64,000 bases of DNA from Oscillospiraceae bacterium (GTDB lineage Bacteria; Bacillota; Clostridia; Oscillospirales; Ruminococcaceae): positions 1 to 64,000 of the forward strand of contig JAFTVU010000002.1 of the NCBI GenBank assembly GCA_017465665.1, given 5' to 3'. Each line of letters begins with the position of its first letter. Position 1 is the stretch's first letter. The notes under the pieces are model-generated. The model had not been told where the DNA came from. It worked only from the letters and a program-made list of their open reading frames with translations, and searched no databases. Shown piece after piece: positions 41,938 to 55,430 of this stretch. Position numbers and translations under genes: made by a program.

Positions 41938-42567
41938 ATGAAGAATAACATCCTGCTCATTCTTGCAGTGACTGTGATCAGTATAGGAATAATCGTGGCT
42001 ACTGTTATGATAAGCGGTGGCGATAGCGGTGACGAAAGCTCTTCTTCTCAGCCTGTGCAGCGCACCAGCAGCACATCTGATATATATGTACAGCCCACGG
42101 AGGATACGCCGCTGGCGGCTTCGCCAGTTACCACAGAGCCTGTTGAAACATCCGCTCCTGCGGAGAGCGCAGAGGCTTCCTATGACAGCGCTGCGGCTGA
42201 CGGAATAATATCCACGGCACATTCGCTCATCGGAATCGATTTTGCCGAGGGCGGAGATACGCCTGACGCAGGCTTTGATAATTCGGGATTTATATACTAT
42301 GTCCTGCGTGAGAATGGCTATATTACCTGTCCGCGCGGACTTAAAGCACAGTCTGAAATGGGCGCGGCGCTTGCGTATGATGAGCTTCGTGCAGGTGATC
42401 TTGCATTCTTCTATGATGAGGAAAAGCAGTCTGTGGCTTTCGGCGGAATCTATTGTGGTGACGGATTGATGATCGCGTGCCTTATGCCCGGTACACAGGT
42501 AAAGGAGATAAATATCACAAGTCCGTATTACACCGAGCATTTCTGCAACGGAATAAGCATCACTTAA
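41938..42567 (+). CDS. Membrane-anchored NlpC/P60-fold protein lacking catalytic residues
   Basis: 209 residues. An N-terminal membrane anchor (6-26) is followed by a Ser/Thr/Pro linker (28-85) and an NlpC/P60-like domain (about 88-209). The order of family features is kept: AHSLIGI, a Gly/Asp stretch, DxSGFIYYVLRENG, PRGLKAQSEMG, LRAGDLAFF, and GIYCGDGLMI. But the nucleophile Cys of D-C-S-G is Asn115 (D-N-S-G) and the His of H-V-G-I-Y is Phe168. A working cysteine peptidase is therefore not expected; a peptidoglycan-binding or regulatory pseudoenzyme outside the membrane is inferred. GAGAGGTG precedes the ATG. Confidence 0.78.
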   Translation: MKNNILLILAVTVISIGIIVATVMISGGDSGDESSSSQPVQRTSSTSDIYVQPTEDTPLAASPVTTEPVETSAPAESAEASYDSAAADGIISTAHSLIGIDFAEGGDTPDAGFDNSGFIYYVLRENGYITCPRGLKAQSEMGAALAYDELRAGDLAFFYDEEKQSVAFGGIYCGDGLMIACLMPGTQVKEINITSPYYTEHFCNGISIT

Positions 42568-42582
42568 AATCGACGAATTTTG

Positions 42583-42610
42583 ATGACCGTATCGTAACAG
42601 ATGCGGTCAT
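42583..42610 (+). terminator. Terminator after the NlpC/P60-fold gene
   Basis: ATGACCG (42583-42589) pairs with CGGTCAT (42604-42610), followed by TTTTATT. Confidence 0.78.
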
Positions 42611-42615
42611 TTTTA

Positions 42616-42644
42616 TTGACAATAATTGTTGGTAGTGGTATAAT
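42616..42644 (+). promoter_or_regulatory. Consensus promoter at the head of the palindrome array
   Basis: TTGACA (42616-42621), 17 bases, TATAAT (42639-42644): a perfect consensus pair. It would transcribe the array and phoH. Later array units repeat TATAAT but not TTGACA. Confidence 0.75.
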
Positions 42645-43106
42645 AAAAACAGCTTATTTCAATTGCTGACGCAATTGCGCTGTTTTTATTGAACGGCGGG
42701 GAGGTCGGCGTTGCCGACAGCTGCTGACGCAGCTAACAAACGCTGACGCGTTTGCACTCCTGGTATAATTAACAGCCTATTTCAATTGCTCACGCAATTG
42801 CGCTGTTTTTATTGAACGGCGGGGAGGTCGGCGTTGCCGACGGCTGCTGGCGCAGCTAACAAACGCTGACGCGTTTGCTCTCCTGGTATAATTAACAGCC
42901 TATTTCAATTGCTGACGCAATTGCGCTGTTTTTATTGAACGGCGGGGAGGTCGGCGTTGCCGACAGCTGCTGACGCAGCTAACAAACGCTGACGCGTTTG
43001 CTCTCCTGGTATAATAAACAGCTTATTTCAATTGATAACGCCATTTGTTGTTTTTTGTTGAATGGCGGCAAACGTAGTGGTTTTTCGGTGCAAAATCGTG
43101 ATCGCC
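42636..43106. repeat. Tandem array of about 123-bp units built from palindromes
   Basis: Units begin at 42636, 42761, 42884 and 43007 (the last diverged), each starting TGGTATAAT. Every full unit holds four palindromes: CAATTGC-TGAC-GCAATTG enclosed by AACAG/CTGTT and followed by TTTTTATT (terminator-like), GTCGGC-GTT-GCCGAC, AGCTGC-TGAC-GCAGCT, and AAACGC-TGAC-GCGTTT. Three of the four share the core GCTGACGC inside different stems. Unit 2 carries two loop changes (TCAC, TGGC). The array fills the gap between the NlpC-like gene and phoH and has no coding potential. It may be a REP-like element, a regulatory RNA or a transcript-thinning leader for phoH. Confidence 0.9.
43067..43106. repeat. 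Dispersed double-hairpin element, copy 2
   Basis: GGCAAACG...TAGTGGTTTTTC...GCAAAATCGTGATCGCC is a diverged copy of the element at 8412-8454. It forms the 3' end of the palindrome array, directly before phoH. Confidence 0.5.
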
Positions 43107-43136
43107 TGTGATCACACAAACAGGAAAGGAATCTGA

Positions 43137-44123
43137 ATGGCAGAAGTAACTATAAATATGGAAAGCATGGAGCAGCTTCATGCTGTTTTCGGTGATTTCG
43201 ACAGCAACGTAAATCTGATACAGAAAGCATTCGATGTAACGATATTCAGTCGTGGCAGCGATATCAAAATAACAGGCGAGGAGCATGCAGTTTCCCGCGC
43301 GGAAAAGGCTATGCAGTCGCTTTCCAAGCTGTATTTCAAGGGCGAGGCTCTGAACGAGCAGTCAGTGCGCTATGTCATCTCAATGGTGAATGACGGCACG
43401 GAGAACGAGGTTGAAACGATATCCTCCGACTGCGTATGCGTGAGCTATTCGGGCAAGCCCATCAAGCCTAAGACTCTGGGTCAGAAGAAATACTGCGATA
43501 TGATAAGAAAGAACACCATAACCTTTGGTGTCGGCCCTGCGGGTACGGGTAAGACCTATCTTGCCGTTGCGCTGGCTGTAAGTGCGTTCAAGGCACATGA
43601 GATACAGCGTATCATCCTGACGCGCCCTGCGGTTGAAGCAGGCGAGAAGCTGGGCTTTCTCCCGGGCGACCTCCAGAACAAGGTAGATCCTTATCTTCGC
43701 CCATTGTACGACGCTCTGTTTGAGATGTTCGGTCAGGAGGCGTTCAACCGTCATCTGGAGCGCGGCTCTATCGAGGTAGCGCCGCTTGCGTACATGCGCG
43801 GACGTACTCTGGACGACAGCTTCATCATCCTTGATGAAGCACAGAACACCACCCGCGAGCAGATGAAGATGTTCCTGACGCGTCTTGGCTTCAACAGCAA
43901 GATGGTCATCACAGGTGATATCACACAGATAGATCTGCCTGAGAGCACCCGTTCAGGTCTGGTGGAGGCGCTCAAGGTGCTGAAGAATGTGGATGATATA
44001 GCACAGAACCGCTTCAGTGACAAGGATGTAGTCCGCCATAAGCTGGTTCAGGATATCGTCAAGGCATACGAAAGCTACAGCGGACAGGATACCCGGCAGA
44101 AAAAAGACTTCAACAGGAGATAA
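43137..44123 (+). CDS. phoH: PhoH family ATPase
   Basis: 328 residues, the usual size. An N-terminal KH-like part (to about 80) with RGSDIKITGEEHAV is followed by the PhoH P-loop domain. Walker A is GPAGTGKTYLA, then LTRPAVEAGEKLGFLPGDLQNKVDPYLRPLYDAL, Walker B is FIILDEAQNTT, and SKMVITGDITQIDLP follows. It is a cytoplasmic ATPase linked to RNA metabolism and often paired with YbeY, as here (3-base gap). AGGAAAGGAA precedes the ATG. Its leader contains the palindrome array. Confidence 0.95.
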   Translation: MAEVTINMESMEQLHAVFGDFDSNVNLIQKAFDVTIFSRGSDIKITGEEHAVSRAEKAMQSLSKLYFKGEALNEQSVRYVISMVNDGTENEVETISSDCVCVSYSGKPIKPKTLGQKKYCDMIRKNTITFGVGPAGTGKTYLAVALAVSAFKAHEIQRIILTRPAVEAGEKLGFLPGDLQNKVDPYLRPLYDALFEMFGQEAFNRHLERGSIEVAPLAYMRGRTLDDSFIILDEAQNTTREQMKMFLTRLGFNSKMVITGDITQIDLPESTRSGLVEALKVLKNVDDIAQNRFSDKDVVRHKLVQDIVKAYESYSGQDTRQKKDFNRR

Positions 44124-46134: not shown

Positions 46135-47484
46135 ATGGGGAAGATAAATAAGAAGCTGCATAAGCTGGGCAGAGTTGCTCTGGCGTGCGTTGTTGCATTC
46201 AGTGCGATGATCGCTCCCAATCTGTCTGTGAACACTCTGGCTACCACCACAGCGGATTTCGATCAGCTGATAGCTGAATACGAAAAGAAAGCGGAGGATG
46301 CCAGAAAGGATATCGAAAAGCTGGAAAGTGAGATCGACGGTCTTACAGGCGATCTTGCGGAGAATGAGGACGCAATAGCGCTCATAGAAGAACAGATATC
46401 CAATTACGAGAATGAGATAGAGAATTACGGCAACCTTATCACCACAACACAGCAGAAGATCTCCACTAAGGAGCAGGAGCTGCGTGAAAAGGATCTTGAA
46501 ATATATGATAAGGAAATAGCTATCGAACAGACCCGCGCCGAGATAGTGCGCCTTGAGGAGGAGAATGACGCCAATCTCAAGAAGTTCGCAAAGCTTATCC
46601 GTGCGCTTTATATGAATGACGCAAGCGACAGTATGCCCGTTCTCAACGGCTCTGATGATTGGTATGATTTCTTTGTTTATGTGGATGTGGTACAGAGCAT
46701 CGGCGAGCAGAACATGGATTTCATGAACGCTCTGCTGGATGATATCCATTCCTGTGAGGATATGATACAGCAGCTGAATGACGATATCGCTCAGCTGAAT
46801 GACGACAAGGCGGAGCTTCAGGATGAGAAGATCGCTCTCGAAAAGGAGATGGCTGATCTTGAGGCAAAGAAGATAGAGGTACAGGGCGTTGCGGATGAAA
46901 GCTACACCCAGATGGAGAAGTACGCCCAGTACAGCGACAATCTTGAATGGCAGATCTATTCCAAGCGCAGCAAGGCAGACGATTATGCCAAGGATATCGA
47001 GGAGACGAATGATATCCTTGAGCAGCTTATCAGCGAAAGGCAGAAAGCCCTTGCAGGCGGCTATGATTACAGCTCGGACGGCTTCAGATGGCCGCTGGAT
47101 ATCAAGTACCAGTACATAACCACCTATTTCGGCTATGACGCATGGCGCGGTGGCAGCCACTATGGAATAGATGTCGGAAATGCGGGCATCGGCGGTGCGA
47201 ATATCTATGCGGCGCAGAGCGGTGTGGTCATCACAGCATATAATGATGACGGCTGGCATGGCGGTTACGGAAACTATGTAGTTATCGATCACGGCGGCGG
47301 GCTTTCCACACTGTATGCTCATTGCTATTCCACTATAGTGACAGAGGGTCAGTATGTTGAAAAGGGCGATGTTATCGGCTATGTTGGTACAACAGGCTGG
47401 TCCACAGGTAATCACCTGCACTTTGAGACCCGTGTGAACGGCGTTGCATACGATCCGTTTGGTTACTCCTATACTTATGTATAA
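46135..47484 (+). CDS. Secreted M23 (LytM) peptidase with coiled-coil N-terminus
   Basis: 449 residues. A signal peptide (about 1-36) is followed by a long coiled coil (about 40-310, Glu/Lys/Ile/Leu heptads) as in EnvC, CwlO and PcsB-like proteins. The C-terminal M23 domain has zinc ligands and catalytic motifs GGSHYGIDVG, TLYAHC and GNHLHFETR (H-x-H). All metal ligands are present, so an active peptidoglycan endopeptidase, controlled by its coiled coil, is expected at the division site or cell wall. AGAAAGGA precedes the ATG and a terminator follows the stop. Confidence 0.92.
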   Translation: MGKINKKLHKLGRVALACVVAFSAMIAPNLSVNTLATTTADFDQLIAEYEKKAEDARKDIEKLESEIDGLTGDLAENEDAIALIEEQISNYENEIENYGNLITTTQQKISTKEQELREKDLEIYDKEIAIEQTRAEIVRLEEENDANLKKFAKLIRALYMNDASDSMPVLNGSDDWYDFFVYVDVVQSIGEQNMDFMNALLDDIHSCEDMIQQLNDDIAQLNDDKAELQDEKIALEKEMADLEAKKIEVQGVADESYTQMEKYAQYSDNLEWQIYSKRSKADDYAKDIEETNDILEQLISERQKALAGGYDYSSDGFRWPLDIKYQYITTYFGYDAWRGGSHYGIDVGNAGIGGANIYAAQSGVVITAYNDDGWHGGYGNYVVIDHGGGLSTLYAHCYSTIVTEGQYVEKGDVIGYVGTTGWSTGNHLHFETRVNGVAYDPFGYSYTYV

Positions 47485-55401: not shown

Positions 55402-55417
55402 TTGAAAACGTTTTCAA
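55402..55417. promoter_or_regulatory. Palindromic LacI/CcpA-type operator
   Basis: TTGAAAACGTTTTCAA is a perfect 16-bp palindrome with the central CG of LacI-family and cre-type sites (TGAAAnCGnTTTCA). It covers the -35 box of the next gene, so binding would block transcription. Confidence 0.75.
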
Positions 55418-55430
55418 AATGTGTTATAAT
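55402..55430 (+). promoter_or_regulatory. Promoter of the GH26-like gene
   Basis: TTGAAA (55402-55407, inside the operator), 17 bases, TATAAT (55425-55430), 70 bases before the ATG. Confidence 0.78.

Follow-up and report, generated by a model that had tools for sequence, protein, structure and literature searches.

The closest described systems to the repeat reported here are the attC sites of integrons, the ends of IS200/IS605 elements, MITEs and REPs. In attC sites the structure is kept while the sequence varies, the sites stand in tandem arrays, and their R boxes read GTTRRRY/RYYYAAC. The IS200/IS605 elements possess subterminal hairpins, pair a guide with their target and insert beside a short target, which in Y1 elements lies 5' of the insertion point. 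It has been reported that attC sites are recognised as folded single-stranded DNA with the bottom strand preferred (PMC6393395), and Correia elements are described as lying upstream of genes and carrying promoters (PMC10969869, PMC3049150). As summarised in PMC3733652, REPs measure 20-40 bp, carry a GTAG or CGTC tag and are found mainly downstream of genes, and their mobilisation by tyrosine transposases is a hypothesis. The excerpts of a MITE review (PMC10969869), of an account of BOX, RUP and SPRITE (PMC3049150), of PMC2267715 and of PMC3733652 describe neither insertion into -10 boxes nor selection of bottom-strand loops, and searches of open-access literature gave no title or abstract opening that describes a structured repeat inserting into -10 boxes.

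In the window, that is, the whole stretch of 64,000 nucleotides analysed, an array of folded repeats lies between an NlpC/P60-family gene and phoH (43137..44123, + strand; PF02562, E 8.8e-100), the downstream gene, which is outside the element. At its head is a sigma-70 promoter (42616..42644, + strand) with TTGACA at 42616-42621, a 17-bp spacer and TATAAT at 42639-42644, exactly as given in the first-pass annotation. Unit 1 (42636..42760, + strand, 125 bp) starts with TGGTATAAT and contains hairpin A (42639-42693), the centre ATTGAA (42688-42693) and a closing stem with three hairpins (42698-42760). Unit 2 (42761..42883, + strand, 123 bp) has the loops TCAC, TGGC and TGAC and a hairpin A whose lower stem is 2 nt shorter, and unit 3 (42884..43006, + strand) is also 123 bp long. 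Unit 4 (43007..43068, + strand), truncated and diverged, consists only of the hairpin A half, and its TGGTATAAT (43007-43015) doubles as the right end of unit 3. Identity to unit 3 is 96% for unit 1 and 98% for unit 2, while unit 4 shows 83% over 62 nt, and TRF gave a period of 123, 3.4 copies, 93% matches and a score of 728. The earlier description of three nearly identical units of 123-125 bp with a diverged fourth is thus borne out by coordinates, identities and TRF, and the statement that each full unit begins with TGGTATAAT and has four hairpins agrees with both sequence and folding. The array had been drawn as far as 43106; its truncated last unit ends at 43068, and 43069-43106 is without visible unit sequence.

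The order within a unit is TGGTATAAT, hairpin A, the centre ATTGAACGG, the closing stem and the next TGGTATAAT. Hairpin A is composed of a long stem, an asymmetric internal loop and an upper stem, for example CAATTGC-TGAC-GCAATTG, and in the phoH array the closing stem is GGGAG/CTCC and encloses three hairpins. Folded as RNA, positions 42633-42761 reach -57.9 kcal/mol, compared with -35.2 +/- 3.4 for shuffled sequences (z -6.7). The word GCTGACGC, which had been taken as the core shared by the hairpins, was counted 13 times in the window, where 3.2 occurrences are expected, and 7 of the 13 fall within the phoH array; in unit 2, however, two of the three core loops read TCAC and TGGC instead. 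Outside the phoH array, only 5 of 295 predicted loops are TGAC, and GCTGACGC was therefore rejected as a conserved unit. The earlier observation that stems differ while the loop is kept thus holds for the loop class, TNC/TNNC, but not for TGAC itself. Elsewhere in the window, a 21-bp tandem repeat of 2.3 copies (46770-46817) lies within an ORF and looks ordinary.

We consider it probable that the phoH array is a cluster of non-autonomous mobile repeats of about 123 bp that insert after the TATA of sigma-70 -10 boxes. The first-pass annotation had proposed a search of the genome and its relatives, and this search revealed a dispersed family in which the GCTGACGC hairpin itself is not conserved. 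A unit compared with its own genome, a MAG of 155 contigs, gave 21 listed matches, 17 of which reached E 0.01 or better, and these include several loci beyond the phoH array. The array thus consists of members of a dispersed family and does not represent a regulator specific to phoH. With a covariance model derived from 15 units, 15 of the 43 genus genomes gave matches, with 6-27 each in G000 (8.8% contamination), G008 (73% complete), G017, G044 (76% complete) and G053 and one or two in ten others. Distant copies keep the architecture and have little stem sequence in common, and in G043, G018, G048 and G014 hairpin A itself contains three hairpins.

Across the order, matches to the genus model were found in 4 of 295 genomes, source genome included. 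The copy in G230 (L295) shows the architecture of the element, and the sequence downstream of it resembles a TPP riboswitch. The copy in G292 (L296) is a GC-rich variant with TGGTATAACC...GGTTGACGGC, suggesting that stems may adapt to genome composition, and the third non-self match, in G248, is a model match for which unit extraction returned no unit. A second model found matches in 5 of 391 genomes of the class, source genome included. With a left-half pattern, G482, G441 and G435, which represent three other families of the class, gave 22, 15 (one of which looks spurious) and 36 matches, respectively, with none for the reversed-pattern control; G362 gave 1 and G230 none. The longest tandem array noticed is in G435 (C74:1869-2676), where nine left halves follow one another at a 94-nt spacing. 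There was no DNA match to 42636-43015 in plasmid and phage collections, and none of the 17 stretches from a pattern scan of IMG/VR passed the fold filter. In the corresponding scan of genome_contigs, 13 of 86 stretches passed, all from the MAGs RGIG4243, SIG517, SIG524 and Lapin-033 bin40, and the remainder were taken as chance.

For further analysis, a unit finder that tolerates no more than one mismatch in each of TATAAT and ATTGAA returned 96 candidates. After manual removal of 19 that were weak or read on the opposite strand, 77 units remained, distributed over 49 arrays in 14 genomes. Because the finder demands both words, their constancy is partly built in. Model matches missed by the finder (L109, L110, L116, L124, L130, L138, L011 and part of L131) stand outside the 49 arrays. 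The covariation analysis of the stems that had also been proposed revealed that 38 of 45 pairs changed on both sides and that 94.4% of cells pair among 64 distinct rows. In this alignment, which was fitted to the structure, the covariation score was 0.491, compared with 0.143 +/- 0.006 after shuffling and 0.08-0.10 with the partner slid by one. RNA structure is expected to tolerate G-U pairs. With the constant T-G of the -10 box set aside, the pairs included 51 G-T and 44 A-C. For the lower stem, repeated arms and units with N were skipped, which left 48 units, and those 36 in which 7 or more of the 9 pairs are Watson-Crick were counted, giving G-T 7 and A-C 12. The fold, and not the stem sequence, is what is conserved, and it is conserved without RNA-type wobble.

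The loops showed a strand-specific signature. On the top strand, 168 distinct hairpins included 92 with TNC/TNNC loops, 87 of them closed by a C-G pair, and 1 with GNA/GNNA; a TNC/TNNC loop on the top strand is GNA/GNNA on the bottom strand. Background hairpins at the same minimum stem of 5 gave 56 and 38 of 787, respectively (p 2e-12). The two classes numbered 75 and 1 of 137 in units against 28 and 18 of 269 in the background at a minimum stem of 6, and 49 and 1 of 94 against 14 and 7 of 94 at a minimum stem of 7. Because the units are related by descent, their loop and pair counts are not independent; when each inner 5-bp stem was counted once, TNC/TNNC accounted for 27 of 49 and GNA/GNNA for 0. 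GNA/GNNA loops with at least two G-C pairs are described as extraordinarily stable DNA mini-hairpins (PMC4686876). In the bottom-strand tetraloops the third base is mostly C, and they are therefore not RNA-type GNRA loops. In addition, DNA energies were lower for the bottom strand in 62 of 76 units (p 4e-9), whereas RNA energies were lower for it in 40 of 76, favouring neither strand; the Mathews1999 energies were identical to the 2004 energies and were left out of this comparison. Loops and DNA energies thus favour the bottom (template) strand. The loop signature is weak in the other families, where 4 of 14 stems carry it. At the site, a near-constant T-G wobble lies beside an A-A mismatch (76 and 75 of 77 units of the genus, a constancy partly built into the unit finder), and the A-A mismatch is not universal, because the centre in G482 reads ATTGTAAC.

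The arrays sit in sigma-70 promoters. A TTG lay exactly 17 bp upstream of 29 of 49 first -10 boxes, of 3 of 49 last boxes and of none of the 28 internal ones. Most arrays have a -35 on their left, and they are flanked by TGxTATA at both ends. Background TGNTATA in the same DNA had a TTG at 17 in 24 of 195 cases (Fisher p 6e-11 against 29 of 49), and full TGNTATAAT sites had one in 19 of 41 (p 0.29). As the -35 enrichment is gone against full TGNTATAAT sites, recognition of the promoter and of the TGNTATAAT word cannot be told apart, and a preference for this word would explain the position without open-complex targeting. In G482, G441, G435 and G362, at least 4 of 6 positions of TTGACA were matched at 14 of 21 visible array starts, at least one of which (L357) is an internal box within an array; scores for the last box were left out for these families because right-end detection picked the hairpin site in G482. 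Five clade genomes contain 629 perfect TTGACA-17-TATAAT sites, and 5 arrays (L052, L114, L117, L133 and L145) start at one, so that only a small share is occupied.

To examine the insertion point, loci with units were compared with element-free orthologous promoters, the gene names being assigned from the sequences by inspection except for phoH. Insertion right after TATA is supported by such promoters at 7 of 8 loci, phoH included, as judged by sequence comparison. A promoter equivalent to that of phoH but without units is present in six relatives (G053, G017, G015, G004, G012 and G047); at the other 23 of the 29 phoH loci inspected the promoter was not seen by the same pattern, and none of the 29 has an array. 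The window itself contains an empty target site (55402..55430, + strand; TTGAAA-17-TATAAT), whose counterpart in G008 (L126) has three units. Six further downstream genes were queried jointly for unit-free promoters. These were found in 3 of 4 relatives for prmA (the contig of G044 ends), moxR (none seen in G008) and comM (none seen in G000), in both relatives for parE and in 2 of 3 for nnr (none seen in G008). A matching promoter was found in 0 of 2 relatives for rluB, whose array is also without a -35.

The empty sites also bear on which bases belong to the element. The three empty comM promoters all read TATACT, and at the filled site the left box is TATAAT and the right box TATACT; the filled parE site shows the same two boxes, with one empty relative reading TATACT and one TATAAT. 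These patterns place the native last bases on the right and would therefore make the left box a native TATA followed by an AT of the element. The right-hand -10 of moxR and nnr differs from that of the empty relatives and the nnr array ends in the remnant of another unit, so these two loci add nothing on the origin of the boxes. For the -10 box of phoH, we infer that TATA is native and the final AT derives from the element. In 66 of 77 units the x of the right-end TGxTATA forms a pair with the base that follows ATTGAA, which makes the right TGx a probable part of the element. Pairing of the left x with the centre is seen in 38 of 49 first but only 17 of 28 internal units, so that the exact left border is uncertain.

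How the repeat spreads was approached through two enzyme families, Y1 transposases (PF01797) and the integron integrase (TIGR02249). Y1 matches were found in 9 of 43 genus genomes, including G000 (fragments), G008 and G044, and were not found in G017 and G053, both many-copy genomes; as Y1 does not track the copies across the 43 genomes, a Y1 transposase is unsupported as the present mobiliser. The integrase is likewise unsupported, with none over the cut-off in 12 carriers searched. No gene-bearing copy was seen among 65 left halves in five genomes (reversed-pattern control 0), and all 65 lie in covariance-model units, with no gene-sized insert as far as the contigs go. An enzyme-free route, in which template switching or short-homology recombination between TGxTATA motifs spreads the units and replication slippage remakes the hairpins, would be consistent with these searches, with the direct TGxTATA repeats at the unit borders and with mosaic units that combine left and right modules in varying ways. 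However, a single target, the TATA of -10 boxes, is reused, a two-part architecture is common to several families, and the T-G and A-A at the site are nearly constant, although partly through the finder; these features fit a specific protein better, and we regard spread without an enzyme as unlikely.

Somewhat more doubtful still is a non-autonomous element of the IS200/IS605 type (Y1, HUH), with TATA as the target tetranucleotide and the centre as the guide. The foldable ends, the short target adjoining the insertion point, the centre complementary to the target and the Y1 matches in three of the genomes named above are all in its favour. Against it stand the distribution of Y1 and the geometry, as on the bottom strand, which seems to be the one that folds, the conserved TATA lies 3' of the insertion point.

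A leader-RNA regulator of phoH, as the decoy or counting attenuator offered by the first-pass annotation would be, with similar leaders regulating the other genes, seems very improbable. A strong promoter is followed by stable hairpins, hairpin A followed by GTTTTTATT resembles an intrinsic terminator in the phoH array, and glgP-like and PBP-like genes carry units in distant species, but the array is absent from the 29 other phoH loci inspected, units precede unrelated genes, there is no G-U excess, DNA energies favour the bottom strand and RNA energies neither, the lower stem takes in the -10 and pre-+1 bases, which should go untranscribed from their own promoter, the longest T-run after hairpin A is 2-5 and at most 3 in 32 of 76 units, and an Rfam search of 42000-44000 gave 0 matches up to E 1. 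A terminator or attenuator was accordingly rejected as the conserved function on the wobble counts, the short T-runs and the bottom-strand bias in DNA energy. Units were found upstream of a glgP-like gene in G000 and G041 (L142/L085), a PBP-like gene in G053 and G043 (L119/L090) and a lipoprotein-like gene in G017 and G044 (L115/L124), all named by eye; such related genes could reflect an old insertion, a hot spot or retention for a function.

Under the mobile-repeat interpretation, in which movement is read from presence and absence between species and not within one strain, the element would move as folded bottom-strand single-stranded DNA. Its centre ATTGAA(x), able to pair with TGxT at either end, may align both ends, and a trans-acting recombinase or transposase would join them to TATA. 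As a proposal, the single-stranded -10 box of an open complex might aid insertion. An enzyme that brings the two ends into register would fit with the T-G wobble and A-A mismatch at the site, and the DNA fold suggests single-stranded handling of the bottom strand, as is the case for attC sites or HUH elements. Tandem arrays would then arise by repeated insertion at one box together with local duplication; some mix different subtypes (L005, L012, L006 and L111), and such apparent repeated insertion after TATA at one box is the behaviour of a narrow-target mobile repeat. At phoH the outcome would be an intact -35/-10 followed by a hairpin-rich 5' leader of about 0.4 kb. A broader and more tentative proposal is that this is widespread mobile DNA of Clostridia that hits the -10 boxes of active promoters, probably when they are single-stranded in the open complex, and that folds on the bottom strand with ultrastable GNA/GNNA loops, its recombinase reading the structure and the TATA junction and not the sequence; this is possible, but we hold it with clearly less confidence.

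Small repeats with a strict preference for -10 boxes would be a natural means of promoter rewiring. The box linked to the -35 would be turned into the consensus TATAAT, as from TATACT at comM and probably at parE, and a structured leader would be added. The strand specificity of the loops suggests that the element moves as single-stranded DNA, and with the pairs of empty and filled promoters its effect on expression could be measured and the enzyme sought.

With attC sites, the promoter repeat shares, as computed, a conserved fold with a bottom-strand preference. Unlike attC sites, it has no cassettes and no integron integrase in the 12 carriers, is dispersed at many promoters with the TATA of the -10 box as target, and consists of two folded modules with a common centre. 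As for the R boxes, by eye, copies of the TGTT type show AAC...GTT at the right-hand module and those of the TGG type do not. Like MITEs such as Correia and ERIC and the pneumococcal BOX, RUP and SPRITE, the units are short (about 123 bp), non-coding, mostly intergenic, foldable and dispersed, with no gene-sized insert seen. As for a target-site duplication, TATA stands on both sides of the element, with the x pairing more regularly at the right end than at the left. Unlike MITEs, they have no terminal inverted repeats, as the ends are direct TGxTATA and inversion exists only to the centre; insertion at the -10 box, unconserved stem sequence and the strand-specific DNA loop signature further distinguish them from Correia, ERIC, BOX, RUP and SPRITE. 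REPs are likewise palindromic and extragenic, but the present units are about 123 bp long, lie in promoters and have no constant tag (of 77 units, 16 contain GTAG/CTAC at any position and 34 contain CGTC/GACG), and, unlike RAYT-moved REPs, two of the five high-copy genomes gave no Y1. Thus, of the earlier suggestion of an expanding mobile or REP-like repeat, the dispersed mobile repeat is supported, but the REP tag is absent and RAYT-type Y1 transposases do not track the copies. Subterminal hairpins, guide-target pairing and an adjoining short target recall the ends of IS200/IS605, whereas on the folding strand the target lies on the opposite side of the insertion point and there is no association with the transposase. 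Because the repeat lacks the inverted ends of MITEs, the integron integrase and the REP tag with Y1, we regard it as a new form of small mobile repeat, and a new mobilising system behind it is possible.

Several individual copies showed further features. In G017, four loci (L109, L110, L116 and L111) carry a second insert of about 130 nt (CAGTGTGTTTCGCTCGGC...) at CGGC within the three-hairpin part; this insert is hairpin-rich itself, a repeat inside a repeat. The insertions L086 (G009) and L099 (G041) are orthologous, with the downstream gene and right end in common, and differ in their hairpin stems, as though these had been exchanged in situ. Finally, in the 120 nt upstream of L087, L088 and L089, another type of repeat directly abuts the unit, consisting of a AATAAACGC hairpin, a closed stem and then ATTATACCA-TAACC-loop-GGTTA-TGGTATAAT.
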